Assembly (NCBI GenBank): GCA_002816585.1 | Contig: MUCT01000045.1 | Location: 1 to 64,000, forward strand | Direction of reading: 5' to 3' | From: SAR202 cluster bacterium Io17-Chloro-G6 | GTDB taxonomy: Bacteria > Chloroflexota > Dehalococcoidia > UBA3495 | DNA: 64,000 nucleotides | Shown: positions 30,717 through 54,264 of the stretch, piece by piece | Position numbering within the stretch: position 1 is the stretch's first letter | How the letters are laid out: the number at the start of each line of letters is the position of its first letter | Made by a program: the position numbers and the translations under genes | Notes under the pieces: generated by a model | Seen by the model: only the letters and a program-made list of their open reading frames with translations | Told to the model about the DNA's origin: nothing | The model's database searches: none

Positions 30717-32336
30717 ATGACAACAACGCAGACGTCCGCGAAAAATCCTACGCCCCCCAAAGCCGCCAAGACTCCCAAGAATCAGCCACTTGAGATCAAA
30801 GTAGAGTCCGCCGACATAACGGGCATCGATACTCCGGCCCTGGTGGTAAACCTGTTTCGTGGTGTGAAGAAGCCCGGCGGCGCAACCGGTGTGGTGGACG
30901 AAGCCCTGGGAGGGGCCATAACCCAGTTGATCAAAGAGGGGGAGATCAAAGGTACTGCCGGGGAGACCACGCTGATCCACACCCTGGGCAAGATCAAGCC
31001 CAGCCGTGTGCTGGTGGCCGGGCTGGGGCCTCAGGACAAGTTCGACGCCCAAGTCGTCCGCCGGGTGTCGGCTGAAGTCGTCCGGTTCCTGCGCCGTAAG
31101 GCGATCTCCCGCGCCGCCACCATCGCCCACGGAGCGGGGATAGGCGGCCTGGACCCTCAGCTATCCGGCCAGGCCATCGCCGAGGGTACCCACCTAGGCC
31201 TCTATAAGTTCGGGGGCTATCGTACGAATCACGGCGAATCTGCCACCGAGTTCGAGAAATTGACCGTCGTGGAGTTGGACAAAAAGAGGGCCAAAGCCAT
31301 TGGCGCCGGAGTGGAGCTGGGTTGCGCTGCGGCCCAGGCGTCCATCGTGGCCCGTGACATGGTGAACGAACCGGCCAACCACATGACCCCAACTCGCATG
31401 GCCGAGGCCGCCCAGAAGGTGGCGAAAGAGCAGGGTCTTAAGATCCAAGTGCTGGACAATCCGGAGATGAAGAAGATGGGCATGGGCGCGTTCATGGGCG
31501 TGGCTCAAGGCACCGACGAGCCGGCCAAGCTCATCGTGCTCAGATACGAGGGAGACCCCGCCAACCCCAAGAACAACCTGGGTCTCATCGGTAAAGGGAT
31601 TACCTTCGACACCGGTGGAATATCCCTCAAGCCTCCTGGCGGCATGGAGGCCATGAAGGGCGACATGGCCGGAGGGGCGTCGGTCATCGCCGCCATGCAG
31701 ATCATCGGCCAGGTCAAACCCAAGATAAATGTCCTCGCGGTGATCGCGGCCACTGAGAACATGCCTGGAGCATCCGCCCAGCGTCCGGGTGACGTGGTGC
31801 GCGCCATGAACGGCAAGACCATCGAGGTCATAAACACCGACGCCGAGGGCCGGCTAGTACTGGCCGACGCCCTGTGCTACGCCCGGGAGCAGGGCATCAC
31901 CCGGCTGGTGGACGTGGCGACACTTACCGGGGCCATGGTTACTACCCTGGGGAAGGCCTGCACCGGAGTGATGGGCAACGACGACAAACTGGTCCAGCAG
32001 ACAATCGACGCCGGGAAAAAAACCGGCGAGAAATTCTGGGAACTGCCTATGTTTGATGAATACAAGGACCTGATTAAGAGCGATGTCGCCGACATGAAGA
32101 ACAGCGGCGGACGGCAGGCCGGCTCAATCAGCGCCGCCCTTCTGCTGGCGGAATTTGTGGACGGCGCAGCTTGGGTCCACTTGGACATCGCCGGCACTTC
32201 GACCTCGGACAAGGCCTCTGGCTACCTGGTAAAAGGGGCCACCGGAGTGCCCGTCCGCACCCTGGCCCAATTGGCCATGGACCTTGCTGAAGAGGGCGGG
32301 CCCAAGAAATCCAAGAGCAAGGCTAAGGCCAAATAG
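30717..32336 (+). CDS. pepA: Leucyl aminopeptidase (M17)
   Basis: 539 residues with a Lys/Pro/Thr-rich N-terminal tail of about 25 residues. Two-metal M17 aminopeptidase releasing N-terminal residues. Signatures are LIGKGITFDTGGISLKPP, MKGDMAGGASV, and NTDAEGRLVLADAL with the metal ligands. The macro-like N-terminal domain spans about 25-200. The C-terminus ends in an Ala/Lys-rich tail (KSKSKAKAK). The last 29 codons and stop lie within the 102-bp copy A of a direct repeat. A diverged copy lies 2.5 kb downstream, so this 3' end was probably replaced when the following island was acquired. Confidence 0.95.
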   Translation: MTTTQTSAKNPTPPKAAKTPKNQPLEIKVESADITGIDTPALVVNLFRGVKKPGGATGVVDEALGGAITQLIKEGEIKGTAGETTLIHTLGKIKPSRVLVAGLGPQDKFDAQVVRRVSAEVVRFLRRKAISRAATIAHGAGIGGLDPQLSGQAIAEGTHLGLYKFGGYRTNHGESATEFEKLTVVELDKKRAKAIGAGVELGCAAAQASIVARDMVNEPANHMTPTRMAEAAQKVAKEQGLKIQVLDNPEMKKMGMGAFMGVAQGTDEPAKLIVLRYEGDPANPKNNLGLIGKGITFDTGGISLKPPGGMEAMKGDMAGGASVIAAMQIIGQVKPKINVLAVIAATENMPGASAQRPGDVVRAMNGKTIEVINTDAEGRLVLADALCYAREQGITRLVDVATLTGAMVTTLGKACTGVMGNDDKLVQQTIDAGKKTGEKFWELPMFDEYKDLIKSDVADMKNSGGRQAGSISAALLLAEFVDGAAWVHLDIAGTSTSDKASGYLVKGATGVPVRTLAQLAMDLAEEGGPKKSKSKAKAK

Positions 32337-32350
32337 GGGTGGCCGGGCCT
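32249..32350 (+). repeat. Direct repeat copy A: current 3' end of pepA
   Basis: 102 bp covering the last 29 codons of pepA, its stop codon and 14 bp beyond (ending GGCCGGGCCT). It is about 90% identical to 34798-34898. Together the two copies bracket the A+T-rich HEPN/STAND insert. Confidence 0.85.
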
Positions 32351-32396
32351 CGATTTCAATGCTTCCGAATTCGCCGTTGGTTGCTAAGGAGTTCTA

Positions 32397-32924
32397 ATGA
32401 GCTACCAAAACGAATGTCAACAAATCCTTGATGTGTTTGAGACAGAACTGCGCGGTTTTGTTTGTAAACAACTAGAGACGCTGATTGGAGCAGGCTGGTG
32501 GAAAACGCGCGTTCCAGGTCCGATAAAGCAATCGTGCAGACAGAGGAGAATACAAGACCAGAACCGGCCGTTTCCTCCTCTACCTACTGGGGAAGATGTC
32601 GACTATATTCACATCGGCGAATTGAAAGACATAATTGTTAGGGCAGACAATTACAAAGAGGTGTTTTCCGAGTTCTTTGGCAGCAACTCGAACGGAATAA
32701 CGACGAAACTTGAAGAGCTCATTGCAACCCGCGACGCTGTGAGGCATGTTCGTCCTGGAATTGGTGCTCGTGAACACGAGCGATTAATCGTTACATGTCG
32801 GGATGTTTTTGATGCCATGATTCTCGATATAGATACGAAGCCTAATCTGAAAATATTTTCAATGGGTACCGGCGAATCTCAACCGGGAGATGAAAACGAT
32901 CCGATAATGAAAACGATCCGATAA
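32397..32924 (+). CDS. HEPN domain (Swt1-like) protein; N-terminal part of a split defence gene
   Basis: 175 residues with TAAGGAG 5 nt before the ATG. The sequence looks like a Swt1-type HEPN domain: all-helical, with the HEPN RNase signature Arg112-x4-His117 in TRDAVRHVRP after a long polar helix. HEPN proteins with intact R-x4-6-H are metal-independent RNases in toxin-antitoxin and abortive-infection systems. The last six codons (IMKTIR) and stop are created by a 17-bp tandem duplication. Removing one copy joins this frame directly to the downstream STAND frame. Base composition differs from the flanking genes. The family call is from pattern, not from a search. Confidence 0.7.
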   Translation: MSYQNECQQILDVFETELRGFVCKQLETLIGAGWWKTRVPGPIKQSCRQRRIQDQNRPFPPLPTGEDVDYIHIGELKDIIVRADNYKEVFSEFFGSNSNGITTKLEELIATRDAVRHVRPGIGAREHERLIVTCRDVFDAMILDIDTKPNLKIFSMGTGESQPGDENDPIMKTIR

Positions 32925-32925
32925 T
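32892..32925 (+). repeat. Perfect 17-bp tandem duplication that splits the gene
   Basis: GAAAACGATCCGATAAT occurs at 32892-32908 and again at 32909-32925. Because 17 is not a multiple of three, the duplication shifts the frame and creates the stop at 32922-32924. Without one copy the reading frame continues as DENDPIIDELIIGPRC into the NB-ARC region. Slipped-strand mispairing could restore it. Confidence 0.9.
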
Positions 32926-32962
32926 AGATGAACTAATAATAGGACCACGTTGCTTTGATAAC

Positions 32963-34702
32963 TTGCCACGACCAGATTATTCGACATTTTTCGGTCGCGA
33001 AGAGGAGCGCTCAACGATTCTAGAGTATTTGGAACATCCCCGAGCATGGGTGGTTTCTGTCGACGGAATCGGAGGCGTTGGGAAGACTGCTTTGGCCGTC
33101 AATACAGCTTATAAAGTCAGAGAACAATCGCTGGCGGGAGAACGGGACTTCGAATACATAATTTGGGCCAGCGCGAAAATTGAGCGCCTAACTCCTAGAG
33201 GTATAGCCAAAGTTTTGCCGAGTTTCTCAGATCTACCAAGCTTGGTGGATGTGATTTTAGAAGTAACGGGGTTTGTCGACGAGTCTAAATCTGAGACAGA
33301 ACGCCTTGAACTTGTACTTGAAATATTGGGCATAGCTAAATGTCTGGTAGTCCTTGATAACCTTGAAACCGTTCGAGACACGAAAATTTCGTACTTTTTA
33401 GCCAACGTGCCAGCACCGAGTAAGGTGCTCATAACTACACGCGAACGAATAGAAGAGAGTCAACGCAATTTAAGATTGACGGCATTGTCGCACGAAGGCG
33501 CAAGAGATCTACTGAGCGAGCTAGGAATTGAACTAGACGCATCGGAACTTTTGAACGCTAAACCCGAAGAATTGGATCGATTCATAGAAAGAGTAGGCGG
33601 GATACCTCTGGCGATGAAGCTTGCAGCAGGAAGGCTTGCGACCGGGGTACCTCTTCCGTCATATATCAATCGATTAGAAAGCGGTGTAGCACAACAAGAT
33701 ATTCTGGAGTTTTGTTTCGATGAATCGTGGACTGATTTAGACCCCGACAGTAAACTTGTGCTTATGGCGACAACGCTTTTTGCGGAACCACCGTCTGAAG
33801 AGGAGTTGAGGCGTGTCACTGACCTCCCCGAATTGAGAGTAAGGGACGCGATAGGGGCTCTGACGAGAAGAGCGTTCCTCAATTCTGAAGATGATTCCGC
33901 GCATGAAACATATCGGTATTCCTTATTGCCTCTTACCGCTGACTTCGTCCGCCGCCAATTATCGGCGGACACTCTTCAGGAAACCCAATTGAGAGACAAT
34001 CACAGTGCGTATTTAGTCGAGAGAGGTAGGTATCAAGAGGCGTTAGGACAAACGAGCCAATTGCTGAGGTCGGAAGGCTCCATCCCAGATGCTGAGCTAT
34101 TGTCAAACATGCTGGTTGATGCTGCTTTTAGGACCTACCAAAGCGGCGATTATCAAGGGGCTTTAAGCCGTCTCCAAAATGCGCAAACATACCGCGAGAC
34201 GGGGTATTTGAATCATACCTGGGGGGTAATTGAAAGGGATGAAGGGGCATATAGCAGATCTCGCGAGAAATTTAGGAAATCGGTTTCTCTCCAAAAAGAC
34301 CGCCTACCAACTTGGAGAAGTTGGGGCAGAATGGAGCAACGACTCGAAAACTGGGACCAAGCGGTGGAGTGTTTCTTCAGGGCTTCTGAATTACCGAGGA
34401 GTGATCCCCAAGATTTCCATGGTCTGGGAGTGTGCTTATCTCGTCTGTCAGGAAAAAAGGGGGCTCAGGAACGTCAATCATTGCTGCAGCAGGCTGAGCA
34501 GGCGTTGAAAAGGGGGTTTTACCGGGATCCGGTAGGCTATAGAGAAACCCATCACAACGTAGTTAATAGCCATTCCCTAGCGCTCGTCTTTGAACGACTA
34601 GGACGTGTCAAAGAGGCTCTAATTCAATGCCGCAATGGCCTTCGTTTAGAGCCAAATAATGAGCGGCTAATTGACCTGAATCTGTCTCTGAACAACCGCT
34701 AA
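32963..34702 (+). CDS. NB-ARC/STAND ATPase with TPR-like repeats; C-terminal part of the split gene
   Basis: 579 residues counted from TTG at 32963, but the frame is open back to 32894 and no ribosome-binding site fits, so this is probably not an independent start. Just before the NTPase it reads RPDYSTFFGREEE. Walker A is GIGGVGKT (35-42), Walker B CLVVLD (127-132), the sensor ITTR (157-160) and the STAND GIPLA motif (213-217). A winged-helix region follows to about 345. The last 200 residues are helical, TPR-like repeats (YQEALGQ, YQGALSRL, WDQAVECFFRA, VKEALIQCRNGLRLEP). In the family, the repeats sense a trigger and the NTPase oligomerises the effector, here the HEPN domain. Confidence 0.8.
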   Translation: MPRPDYSTFFGREEERSTILEYLEHPRAWVVSVDGIGGVGKTALAVNTAYKVREQSLAGERDFEYIIWASAKIERLTPRGIAKVLPSFSDLPSLVDVILEVTGFVDESKSETERLELVLEILGIAKCLVVLDNLETVRDTKISYFLANVPAPSKVLITTRERIEESQRNLRLTALSHEGARDLLSELGIELDASELLNAKPEELDRFIERVGGIPLAMKLAAGRLATGVPLPSYINRLESGVAQQDILEFCFDESWTDLDPDSKLVLMATTLFAEPPSEEELRRVTDLPELRVRDAIGALTRRAFLNSEDDSAHETYRYSLLPLTADFVRRQLSADTLQETQLRDNHSAYLVERGRYQEALGQTSQLLRSEGSIPDAELLSNMLVDAAFRTYQSGDYQGALSRLQNAQTYRETGYLNHTWGVIERDEGAYSRSREKFRKSVSLQKDRLPTWRSWGRMEQRLENWDQAVECFFRASELPRSDPQDFHGLGVCLSRLSGKKGAQERQSLLQQAEQALKRGFYRDPVGYRETHHNVVNSHSLALVFERLGRVKEALIQCRNGLRLEPNNERLIDLNLSLNNR

Positions 34703-34797
34703 ACGGCAACTTGCTTAATCGTTATTGCGTGAATACATCGAATGGTTCCGCAGAAGAGTAGGATCATTATGACCAGTTCGTATCAGACGATCTGACG

Positions 34798-34898
34798 GCC
34801 CGTGCGCACCCTGGCCCAACTGGCCATGGACCTGGCTGAAGAGGGCGGCCCCAAGAAGACCAGGAGCAAGGCTAAGGCCAAGTAGGGAGGCCGGGCCT
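34798..34898 (+). repeat. Direct repeat copy B: relic of the ancestral pepA 3' end
   Basis: 101 bp about 90% identical to 32249-32350. It keeps the pepA reading frame and stop (encoding LAQLAMDLAEEGG and ending RSKAKAK), followed by GGCCGGGCCT, but is cut off from the rest of pepA. The break at its left side, about 34797, marks the right end of the inserted segment. The stretch from the end of the STAND gene to the next gene (34703-35031) otherwise holds a TATAAT at 34975-34980, a likely -10 for the VOC gene. Confidence 0.85.
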
Positions 34899-35031
34899 GC
34901 TGGAGATTAATATAAGTTCGGCGAAGCCGCTCAGGGAAATTCTGCATGGGCACACCGGCCCATAATCCGTGGTGTATAATTTTATTTATTAACCACCAGG
35001 CACTTCCAATAGATTATGGAGGATGACAACT

Positions 35032-35511
35032 ATGCCAACGATCGAATCCCTGGGACACGTTGGGATCTACGCCGAGGACCTGATGAAGCAGCGGGATTTT
35101 TACACCCGTGTGTTGGGCCTCCAAATAGCAGACGAAGAATTAGAAGAACGCGGAATGACCTTCCTCAGCGCCGACCCGGAACGGGAGCACCATGAATTCG
35201 TGCTGATGAAGGGCCGCGTGACCAATGAGGGCGACAAAGTAATTCAGCAGATCTCCTTCATCGTCCCATCGTTAGACGATCTGAAAGAGTTCCACGTCCG
35301 TCTTCTCGAAGAGGGTATCCAGATTGACCGGATTGTCAGTCACGGCATCGCCTTCGGTATGTATTTCTTCGACCCAGAAGGCAACCGCATCGAGCTGTAT
35401 GTCAGGACCCCTTACAAAGTTCCTCAGCCTCTAGGAGATGTCATCGACCTATCTATGTCCAACGAAGAGCTCGAAGAGATTGCCAAGGCCCGTATCCCAG
35501 CCGCACACTAG
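35032..35511 (+). CDS. VOC family protein (glyoxalase / extradiol-dioxygenase fold)
   Basis: 159 residues from the ATG at 35032, since GGAGG at 35018-35022 gives correct spacing to it and none to the ATG at 35023. The fold's three metal ligands can be assigned to the His of LGHVGIYAED, a His in EREHHEFVL and the Glu of GNRIELYV, as in extradiol dioxygenases. A C-terminal tail of about 25 residues contains DVIDLSMSNEELEEIA. The protein may be a catechol-type dioxygenase or other VOC enzyme; the substrate is unknown. Next to a transporter and a dienelactone-hydrolase-like gene, aromatic degradation is a reasonable guess. Confidence 0.8.
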   Translation: MPTIESLGHVGIYAEDLMKQRDFYTRVLGLQIADEELEERGMTFLSADPEREHHEFVLMKGRVTNEGDKVIQQISFIVPSLDDLKEFHVRLLEEGIQIDRIVSHGIAFGMYFFDPEGNRIELYVRTPYKVPQPLGDVIDLSMSNEELEEIAKARIPAAH

Positions 35512-35541
35512 TCTTTTAGGGGCGCCCTATTGTCCCATTAG

Positions 35542-35597
35542 AAGGCCGAAAGGCGCACTGCTTTCTTAGAAAACAGCGAGTCCGCCTCTCGGCCTTT
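35542..35597 (+). terminator. Probable terminator hairpin after the VOC gene
   Basis: A 14-bp stem with one mismatch (AAGGCCGAAAGGCG with CGCCTCTCGGCCTT) followed by TTTA. The T run is short, so efficiency is uncertain. Confidence 0.5.
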
Positions 35598-35688
35598 ACG
35601 TTTAATCAGAACGTACCCAATGGTTTAGAAGATAGATGAATAGCCATTTGCCGTGTCAGCTTGGCCGTTCCCCAGTGGTGCGGCCGCG

Positions 35689-36957
35689 ATGAGCACTCCC
35701 GAGGCTAGGCCCTACGCCGACCTCCCCCGTAGCTACCACGTCTTCAAGTGGCGGATCCTCCTGGCCTTTGCCGGCTTCTATCTGTTCCTCTATCTGGGCC
35801 GCTTCAACTTCTGGCCCGTGGCCCCTTTGGTCAAAGAGGACCTGGGACTCAGCCATTTTGAGATCGGCCTGATCAACGCCCTGCTGCTCTGGGGGTTCGG
35901 CCTAGGCGATCTGGTACACGGGCGACTCAGCGAAGCCTACGGTCTGCGCCTTTGGGTGTTGATCGGCGCGGTACTCACCACCGTTTTCAATTGGATTACC
36001 AGCTTTGCCACGTCGGCCGTCACCATGGCCATACCTTGGGGCATCGCCGGATTTGTCAACGCCGCCTGTTGGGCTCCCGGCATCAGCATGGTCTCCCAGT
36101 GGTGGCCCCGCCGGAACCGTGGCATGGCCATGGGAATCGTGGGCACAGCGGCCGGGGGCGCCATGGTGATGATGTGGTGGATCTCTGGCTACGTGGGAGC
36201 GGAGTGGGGCTGGCGGGCGTCTTTCCGGTATCCCCCACTGATAATCGCGGTGCTGGGTATAGCTTTCTACTTCATCGCCCGGGACCGGCCCTCCGACGTT
36301 GACCTGCCCGAGTACGTGGAAGAAGACGAGGTCTCGGCTACTCCTGAATCTCTGGACCCCCAGCGCCTCAAGGGTTTCGGCCCCTACAAAGAACTGCTTT
36401 CCAACCCCAGGTTTCTGTTGGCCAGCCACGTAAAAGGCCTGGAGAACGTGGTCCGCTATGGCCTTACCACATGGGTGCCCATCTACTACTTTGAAGAGGG
36501 TGGGTTGTCCATCGAGTCCACCGTCTTGTTGACCATCCTGCTGCCCGTTGGGTACCTGATCGCCCCTCCGGTCGCGGGAATTATCTCAGACCGCTATTTG
36601 GGCAGCCGCCGCCAACCCATGGTCATTTTTTCCTGCGCAGTGAGCGCCCTGGTACTGGTGGGAATCGCATTGGCGCCGCCCGTCAATGTGACATTGGGGG
36701 CATTGTTGCTGCTCGTCGGTGGCCTGTCTATGGGCATGTCTCCCATGTCGACAGTGGCTGTCGATATTGCCGGAAGACATATGTCTGGCACCTCCTCGGG
36801 CCTGTTGGACGCCCACGGTTACGCTTACGCCGGGGCCCAGGCCCTCATTTTCGCTGCGGTACTCGACATGGCCGGCAGCCCCTGGCCGATCGTGTTCCTG
36901 GTCATGGCCGCCACCAGGGTAGTTTCCGGAATAATGATCTCCGCCGTCAAGGTTTGA
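35689..36957 (+). CDS. MFS transporter, organophosphate/sugar-phosphate antiporter (OPA)-like
   Basis: 422 residues from the ATG at 35689; an in-frame GTG at 35653 would add 12 residues and neither has a good ribosome-binding site. About 12 membrane segments in two halves are split by a hydrophilic loop at residues 195-235. The first helix region, YLGRFNFWPVAPLVKEDLGL, resembles the Y-x-x-R motif of the GlpT/UhpT/UhpC branch, as does SMVSQWWPRRNRGMAMGI. The substrate is not predictable. It sits between VOC and dienelactone-hydrolase-like genes on the same strand. Confidence 0.8.
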   Translation: MSTPEARPYADLPRSYHVFKWRILLAFAGFYLFLYLGRFNFWPVAPLVKEDLGLSHFEIGLINALLLWGFGLGDLVHGRLSEAYGLRLWVLIGAVLTTVFNWITSFATSAVTMAIPWGIAGFVNAACWAPGISMVSQWWPRRNRGMAMGIVGTAAGGAMVMMWWISGYVGAEWGWRASFRYPPLIIAVLGIAFYFIARDRPSDVDLPEYVEEDEVSATPESLDPQRLKGFGPYKELLSNPRFLLASHVKGLENVVRYGLTTWVPIYYFEEGGLSIESTVLLTILLPVGYLIAPPVAGIISDRYLGSRRQPMVIFSCAVSALVLVGIALAPPVNVTLGALLLLVGGLSMGMSPMSTVAVDIAGRHMSGTSSGLLDAHGYAYAGAQALIFAAVLDMAGSPWPIVFLVMAATRVVSGIMISAVKV

Positions 36958-38765: not shown

Positions 38766-39794
38766 ATGCAGCGTATCTTTCGCCGCCCCGGATTATGGGC
38801 GCTCCTGCTTGCCGCGTTGGCAACGGGCGCTTGTGGCGGTGGAACGGCAGACCGATCTGAAAATGAAATTTTGGCGGACAATCGACTAAAGGTGGTTACC
38901 ACGGTATCGCCTATCACCAGCATTGTAGAAAACATCGGTGGCTCACGAATCCGATTGGAAGGCGTGGTTCCCGAGGGCGTAAATTCCCACACCTTTGAGC
39001 CGGCACCATCCATGGCCAAACTCATGGCCCAAGCTGACCTAATAATATTTAACGGGCTTTTCCTGGAGGAGCCGACTTTGGCGTTGGCCAAAGCCAACAA
39101 GCAAGACGAAACCGTGATACTGTCCTTGGGCGAGCAGGCGGTCACTCGCGACGCATGGCAGTTTGATTTTACGTTCCCGGAGACTGCGGGTCATCCCAAC
39201 CCCCATCTGTGGCCGGACCCGAACCTGGGTCTAAGGTACGCCGAGTTGGTCCACGACCAGCTAGCCGCGATGGACCCTGACAACGCCGCATACTACGCCA
39301 AGAATTTGGAGCGGTTTCGCTCTAGGGTAACCTTGATGGACCAGGCCATCAGGACGGCGGTAACGACTGTGCCGGAACAGAACCGGAGATTGCTGACCTA
39401 CCATGATTCCTGGGCCTACTTCGCCAAGCAGTACGGAATGGAGGTCATTGGCGCGGTCCAGCCCTCCAATTTTTCCCAGCCTTCCGTTAGAGAAGTAGCC
39501 CGGCTGATCGACCAGGTGAAGGCTCTCGGACTGCCGGCTGTGTTCGGTTCCGAAGTCTTTCCCAGCGATGTGTTGGAAGCCATTGCCAGCGAGGCCAATG
39601 CCCAGTTCATCGATGATCTGGCCGACGACGATCTACCGGGGAAGCCCGGCGATCCGGAACATTCCTACCTCGGGTTGATGCGGCAAAATCTGCTTGTGAT
39701 GATTCCAGCATTAGGCGGAGATGCCGGCGGGATGGCCGGCTTAGATACCACCAACGTGTTCGATGGCCCCAGCGGGGCCATCTACCCACAATAG
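38766..39794 (+). CDS. znuA: Metal ABC transporter substrate-binding lipoprotein (ZnuA-like)
   Basis: 342 residues. A signal peptide with lipobox ATGAC (Cys23) makes it a lipoprotein. The cluster A-I metal-binding fold shows His75 (NSHTFEP), His147 (NPHLWPDP) and His213 (LTYHDSWAYF), the three histidines of zinc/manganese binders. A Glu or Asp in FGSEVFPSD is the probable fourth ligand. The His-rich loop of many ZnuA proteins is absent, but His-rich segments occur in the next two proteins. It directly follows the Fur-family gene. Confidence 0.9.
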   Translation: MQRIFRRPGLWALLLAALATGACGGGTADRSENEILADNRLKVVTTVSPITSIVENIGGSRIRLEGVVPEGVNSHTFEPAPSMAKLMAQADLIIFNGLFLEEPTLALAKANKQDETVILSLGEQAVTRDAWQFDFTFPETAGHPNPHLWPDPNLGLRYAELVHDQLAAMDPDNAAYYAKNLERFRSRVTLMDQAIRTAVTTVPEQNRRLLTYHDSWAYFAKQYGMEVIGAVQPSNFSQPSVREVARLIDQVKALGLPAVFGSEVFPSDVLEAIASEANAQFIDDLADDDLPGKPGDPEHSYLGLMRQNLLVMIPALGGDAGGMAGLDTTNVFDGPSGAIYPQ

Positions 39795-39840
39795 GGGCCT
39801 TGTGCCCACAATAAGGGACCTCGTGCCCATAATAGGGGGA
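39785..39840 (+). repeat. Imperfect 20-21-bp tandem repeats spanning the znuA stop
   Basis: Copies start at 39785 (20 bp), 39805 (21 bp) and 39826 (partial, 15 bp), each beginning CCCACAATA or a variant. The first contains the znuA stop codon; the last supplies the G-rich ribosome-binding site of the following gene. Confidence 0.6.
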
Positions 39841-53489: not shown

Positions 53490-54071
53490 TTAACCCGATT
53501 CATCACCACGGCCTTCCACCGAAGGATTCAGGTTTTTCCGCACTTCGGCCCAACCCTCGGCCATGGTCCGCTCCGGAAACGGCAGCTGGATCCCGTCGCG
53601 GAACACTTTCACACGGACGAACACCGGCCCAGTCTGGCGCATCACATCTTCCAGGCCGATCAATAATTCTTCCAGTTTGTCGAATTCGTAGGTCTTGGCG
53701 TAGCCCGAACTCTGGGCCATCTGCACTAAGTCTAGGTTGTCCAACTCTCTGATTGGGACACCTGAGGTGGACACGGCGGACACGTCGTCAAATACGAAAT
53801 GGACCAGATTCTCCGGATTGGACTCACCGATGGTCGCCAGGCCGCCAAGGTTGGTCCTCAGCGTGGAATCGCAGTCAAGCACCAACACCTTTCCTTCGGG
53901 CTGGGCCAGGGCCAGTCCCAGGCCCACAGCAGGCGCCCGGTCCATGCAGTCGGATAGGTCAACGTCCAGGTCACGGCGTTCCGAAACCTGGCTCCACTCG
54001 CGTAGCGCAGACGAGGTGGAAACCACCAACGAGTTTCTACGGTGGAAGTTGACCGCTTTGGTCGCTTCCAT
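53490..54071 (-). CDS. TPP-binding decarboxylase-like subunit with degenerate motif (sulfopyruvate decarboxylase beta-like)
   Basis: 193 residues from the ATG at 54069-54071; the frame continues into the tandem repeats. It corresponds to the C-terminal TPP/Mg-binding domain of sulfopyruvate or phosphonopyruvate decarboxylases: LGLALAQPEGKVLVLDCDS then NLGGLATIGESNPENLVHFVF, and GPVFVRVKV near the end. The normal GDG-x-N motif reads CDS...N, keeping the metal Asp and the Asn but losing both glycines, and the following DN is DD. No partner PYR-domain subunit is nearby. It may be an altered-function or decaying enzyme. A frameshifted paralogue lies at 54650-54835. Confidence 0.65.
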   Translation of the reverse strand: MEATKAVNFHRRNSLVVSTSSALREWSQVSERRDLDVDLSDCMDRAPAVGLGLALAQPEGKVLVLDCDSTLRTNLGGLATIGESNPENLVHFVFDDVSAVSTSGVPIRELDNLDLVQMAQSSGYAKTYEFDKLEELLIGLEDVMRQTGPVFVRVKVFRDGIQLPFPERTMAEGWAEVRKNLNPSVEGRGDESG

Positions 54072-54072
54072 A

Positions 54073-54264
54073 GATGGTATGACTGGACTTCCCGGTGGTG
54101 TCCGCCGGTCAGCTGCCACTTGGGTTTCTCTCCATTGATGGTATGACTGGACTTCCCCGTAGTGTCCGCCGGTCAGTTGCCACTTGGGATTCTCTCCAAT
54201 GATGGTATGACTGGACCCCCCGGTAGTGTCTGCCGGTCAGCTGTCACTCAGGTTTCTCTTCGTA
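54073..54264. repeat. Three 64-bp tandem repeats
   Basis: Copies at 54073-54136, 54137-54200 and 54201-54264 each begin GATGGTATGACTGGAC and share GTCCGCCGGTCAG or a variant. They differ at several positions, and the outer copies are the most diverged. The first copy begins next to the start of the decarboxylase-like gene. The third includes the stop codon of the small membrane-protein gene. They could be a multi-site regulatory region or expanded minisatellite. Confidence 0.85.

Follow-up and report, generated by a model that had tools for sequence, protein, structure and literature searches.

The 64,000-nucleotide stretch of contig MUCT01000045.1 analyzed here (hereafter, the window) originates from the SAR202 cluster bacterium Io17-Chloro-G6, and carries a gene of bacterial NLR-like architecture, which associates a HEPN effector, a STAND ATPase of the NB-ARC type, and TPR repeats. 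Its reading frame is split by a perfect 17-bp tandem duplication. Very probably, this is an acquired gene, split by a slippage duplication in the linker between effector and switch, and most likely reflecting a recent loss of function.

A duplication between two halves of one gene

The unit at 32892-32908 is repeated base for base at 32909-32925, within a perfect tract (32890-32925) for which Tandem Repeats Finder gives a period of 17, 2.1 copies, and a 100% match. The exact duplication described in an earlier reading of this DNA (the original prediction) was thus confirmed by both means, and the frame analysis bears out that it parts the HEPN frame (ORF1, 32397-32924) from the NB-ARC/TPR frame (ORF2, TTG 32963-34702). 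The predicted arithmetic is also right, as removing one unit restores a frame of 763 codons, including the stop, in agreement with the length of the 33 full-length homologues (749-773 aa). Beyond the duplication, the gene contains no further stop or frame shift.

The domains proposed at first were recovered by Pfam, with HEPN_Swt1 (PF18731, E 3.3e-6, 27.8 bits for a cut-off of 27.5) in ORF1, and NB-ARC (E 1e-11) and TPR_2 (E 2.1e-9) in ORF2 (Table 1). In ORF1, the Swt1-like HEPN assignment relies on PF18731 and on fold inspection, the PADLOC profile PDC-M34B (HEPN component) matches at E 2.7e-14, and the Rx4-6H motif occurs as RDAVRH, in columns conserved among homologues. ORF2 possesses both the Walker motifs of a STAND ATPase, LVVLDN being taken here as Walker B-like, and C-terminal TPR repeats. 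PADLOC matches the HEPN part alone, with no family recovered for ORF2 at E up to 1. Foldseek, with the HEPN model, returned nothing below E 0.001.

Table 1. Position of the features discussed, all on the forward strand of the window.
Feature	Coordinates	Strand	Basis or remark
AAGGAG Shine-Dalgarno-like sequence and ORF1 ATG	32377..32399	+	Sequence inspection
ORF1, HEPN (Swt1-like) effector, 175 aa	32397..32924	+	Pfam match over residues 9-140; PADLOC; fold
Rx4H motif RDAVRH, residues 112-117	32730..32747	+	R112 and H117 (near-)invariant in homologues
17-bp tandem duplication	32890..32925	+	Frameshifting; HEPN/NB-ARC linker; unit 32892-32908, repeat 32909-32925
ORF2, NB-ARC STAND ATPase and TPR repeats, 579 aa from TTG	32963..34702	+	Pfam; no good Shine-Dalgarno
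Walker A GIGGVGKT	33065..33088	+	Motif
Walker B-like LVVLDN	33344..33361	+	Motif
Top-scoring TPR repeat (TPR_2)	34577..34660	+	Pfam
pepA (leucyl aminopeptidase) 3' end, left copy of direct repeat	about 32249..32338	+	Flanks acquired gene
Probable xdh fossil (first codons)	34769..34792	+	Short match, up to 20/23 bases
pepA 3' end, second copy, right of acquired gene	about 34798..34887	+	91% identical

Out of 7999 scored candidates, the protein search with ORF2 yielded 200 proteins, of which 120 were listed, and the motif check covered 51 of the latter (P0002-P0050, P0052, and P0055, omitting P0051, P0053, P0054, and P0056-P0120). Following the window's own entry (557 aa), the top nine matches listed share 62-63% identity and are 733-760 aa long. 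Rx4H is followed by Walker A within one chain in 44 of the 51 homologues examined; full length (749-773 aa, with a median of 760) is reached by 33 of the 51. Seven lack Rx4H or Walker A, including four that start in the linker (P0015, P0016, P0039, and P0045). With ORF1 alone as query, the sole matches were ORF1 itself and a 298-aa protein encoded on a contig of 1,747 bases. Since the homologues are mostly fused and the HEPN half alone finds next to nothing, these sequences indicate that the intact form is a single HEPN-STAND-TPR polypeptide, of which the window copy is the broken version. The two frames are, therefore, halves of one chain, as the original prediction proposed. That all homologues might be two separate proteins does not hold, and an ordinary two-gene operon was rejected in view of their fusion.

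Because its frame is split at 32890-32925, the window gene is not the single polypeptide seen in HEPN(Swt1-like)-STAND-TPR proteins, and can be regarded as a disrupted, non-working member of this group. In the predicted structure of homologue P0002 (pLDDT 85.2, pTM 0.50), the HEPN/NB-ARC linker (residues 151-176) falls below pLDDT 50, and the window duplication maps to the equivalent linker. According to this model, the lesion lies in a disordered linker between effector and switch.

From this arrangement, a loss of function and its cause can be inferred. In intact relatives, by analogy, the TPR part would sense a signal from the invader, upon which the ATPase would oligomerize in an ATP-driven manner, and the HEPN domains, brought together as RNase dimers, would cleave RNA and arrest the infected cell. 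A suicide RNase role is a fair prediction from family and fold. The duplication itself probably arose from slipped-strand replication, and the resulting frame shift in the flexible linker would uncouple the effector from the switch, leaving ORF1 to encode a HEPN domain on its own, and ORF2 a protein devoid of effector and of a good start. Triggering should fail, because effector and switch would be on separate chains.

As a mutation, the duplication is real and uncommon, but not extraordinary. For units of at least 12 bp, it is the sole perfect tandem repeat in the window, and its 17-mer is absent from the rest of the window, on both strands. Three mononucleotide shuffles of the window's first 20 kb each gave 0 such repeats. 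In 80 loci of relatives at the adjoining pepA gene (1,056,944 bases), 10 perfect tandems (units of 12-59 bp, 3 of the 10 not a multiple of 3) were counted.

Probable acquisition of the gene and age of the break

The GC content at third codon positions is 0.44-0.45 in the gene, compared with 0.77 for pepA, 0.65 for VOC, which comes next, and 0.76 for the MFS gene beyond it. A 90-nt direct repeat of the pepA 3' end flanks this low-GC gene, with one copy on each side, and a segment of about 24 bases, preceding the right-hand copy, resembles the start of xdh, a molybdopterin dehydrogenase gene. Among the 80 loci, which mostly belong to SAR202/Dehalococcoidia metagenome-assembled genomes, one relative labelled Planctomycetota (L021) being perhaps mis-binned, 16 were inspected at this site. 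The pepA-VOC interval holds a 748-756-codon gene in nine relatives (identified as xdh in all three on which Pfam was run), leads directly to VOC in six, and contains a radical-SAM gene in one (L011). Given the GC contrast, the flanking pepA copies, the xdh remnant, and the contents of this site in relatives, the gene seems to have been imported, at a variable spot from which xdh was lost.

That the pepA site is the normal home of the HEPN-STAND gene was rejected, relatives carrying xdh, nothing, or a radical-SAM gene. No full homologue was found in the 12 relatives' genomes searched, two of which gave weak partial matches. Integration targeted to a tRNA was also rejected, as there are 0 tRNAs in the window and the flanking repeat is the pepA 3' end. 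In one relative (L020:9600-9700), the end of pepA and the beginning of xdh seem partly tandem-duplicated, like the window's right-hand remnant.

PHROG phrog_24039 (function unknown) matches ORF2 at E 8e-32, and tblastn of phage records gave no match. In viral contigs, the single sequence gave no pattern match and alignment A1 gave 94 stretches, none confirmed, while the single ORF2 sequence gave 29 pattern stretches in genome contigs, none confirmed. In plasmid records (102 and 64), every match was below 60% identity.

Conserved residues were counted at positions with at least 90% agreement, using 35 of the 36 homologue rows of alignment A1. The window retains 26 of 31 such positions in HEPN and 223 of 237 in STAND; the homologue medians are higher (0.97 and 0.98), but P0035, P0029, and P0040 retain fewer. 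The break looks recent at the sequence level, because family-conserved residues are largely retained on both sides and there is no second stop or shift.

Rfam gave 0 matches over 31500-36000, and promoter and terminator counts were close to the shuffled expectation. Elsewhere in the window, a 64-bp tandem array (3.0 copies, 88% matches) lies at 54067-54259, and an imperfect 20/21-bp repeat at 39774-39838, just upstream of a large ABC-transporter gene.

Probable inactivation and competing explanations

In the order of L001's genome, a strong homologue was found in 1 of 250 genomes (L117, 52% identical to P0005). A lesion at the P-loop, not involving a tandem repeat (L117:3099-3147), breaks its frame, on a contig that stops short of the HEPN part. 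Of the 393 genomes sampled in the class, three gave matches at E up to 1e-30. The frame is open in L084 (854 aa) and L086 (781 codons), and L085 carries a perfect 40-bp tandem duplication (L085:2086-2168), just after which its 414-codon NB-ARC frame stops, with no TPR part recognizable downstream. Three of the five copies, including the window's, are thus broken, two of them with a perfect frame-shifting duplication, although L085 is only distantly related (about 30%) and the five-copy sample is small. Two further perfect tandems, in L106 (14 bp) and L107 (71 bp), fall beyond the STAND alignments and are excluded from this count.

According to the original prediction, the suicide RNase is held OFF or inactivated by a reversible duplication. 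Inactivation is favored here, whereas phase variation, in which unit loss by slippage would re-arm the suicide RNase and the population would hedge its bets, is very unlikely. Such a reversible OFF state would fit a direct repeat that is perfect, has a length other than a multiple of 3, and lies in a linker expected to tolerate changes in length, as well as the good preservation of both gene halves and the similar 40-bp duplication of L085. Classical phase-variable tracts, nevertheless, consist of many short units, and there are only two copies here. No one-unit allele occurs among the 200 protein matches, nor was any conspecific allele, intact ones included, found there other than the window's own entry, for a sampling of about one contig. 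Moreover, L085 looks dead and L117 is broken by another type of lesion. A reversible switch has no support beyond the nature of the lesion: the tract is single and two-copy, no second allele was seen, and no frameshift signal was found. The further two broken STAND genes in the class suggest ordinary loss. Also very unlikely is the broader idea that STAND/NLR-type suicide genes of Dehalococcoidia are repeatedly silenced, revertibly, through short, perfect tandem duplications that lie close to domain boundaries.

An assembly or sequencing artefact, the true gene being in one frame, is improbable: frame breaks are frequent in the family's metagenome proteins, as with the seven homologues lacking a motif, but an exact 17-bp duplication is atypical of base-calling error and the remainder of the gene shows no other shift. 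It is also highly doubtful that the split is functional, giving two proteins, or a fused product by ribosomal frameshifting or re-initiation. The frames do overlap, at about 32894-32924, so that they would be joined by a -1 shift there, and the four homologue entries mentioned above likewise begin in the linker after HEPN. However, the -1 slip suggested on AAAA at 32910-32913 is not supported and was rejected, since the ORF1 frame contains no X-XXY-YYZ slippery heptamer and homopolymers at the junction do not exceed 4. The second frame, as had been noted, has no ribosome-binding site of its own, with no convincing Shine-Dalgarno upstream of TTG 32963 or TTG 33029, and no free-standing HEPN family was found with ORF1. 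Because relatives elsewhere mostly have the gene in one piece, the window copy is most likely just inactivated.

Significance and comparison with known systems

This analysis documents a family of HEPN-NB-ARC-TPR proteins, chiefly consisting of metagenome entries, for which a limited literature search recognized no experimental work. The loss-of-function allele of the acquired copy, which seems to be of fresh date, illustrates how suicide-type defence genes are rapidly gained and lost. Were the duplication to revert at a useful rate, it would offer a simple means of holding a costly suicide gene in reserve; likewise, revertible duplications (17 bp here, 40 bp in L085) would allow a population to keep a small armed fraction cheaply.

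The bacterial NLR-like architecture of the gene was already published in 2013, and the window copy is a further, disrupted member. Table 1 of Anantharaman et al. 2013 (PMC3710099) describes Swt1-like HEPN domains fused to STAND-ATPase, TPR, and S1 (Npun_F6454, MED222_16016, and Desac_1927), as 'mostly active'. The window gene shares with these the Swt1-like HEPN, the STAND ATPase, and TPR, a likeness in described architecture, and differs by its frame-shifting duplication. Four HEPN-bearing systems are among those validated against phage in PMC13092281. The entry titles of AbiF and of the yeast Swt1 C-terminal domain do not mention a STAND switch, that of 8vz6 being an AbiF dimer bound to non-coding RNA.

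Bacterial NLR-like STAND defence proteins include Avs/AVAST, bNACHT, and the TIR-STAND-TPR proteins of P4-like satellites (PMC9122126). They have in common with the window family an N-terminal effector, a central STAND NTPase, and C-terminal repeats, and the predicted model of homologue P0002 matches EfAvs5 (9jap) by Foldseek at E 2e-6. In contrast to these proteins, the window family has NB-ARC instead of NACHT by Pfam, together with a HEPN effector and a predicted defence role. The STAND core fold of P0002 also resembles those of Apaf-1, CED-4, and plant NLR resistosomes, with the best apoptosome and NRC3 matches at Foldseek E 6e-11 to 4e-11. As whole-length TM-scores are low (about 0.2-0.36), the likeness to apoptosomes and resistosomes concerns domain order and core, not overall shape.
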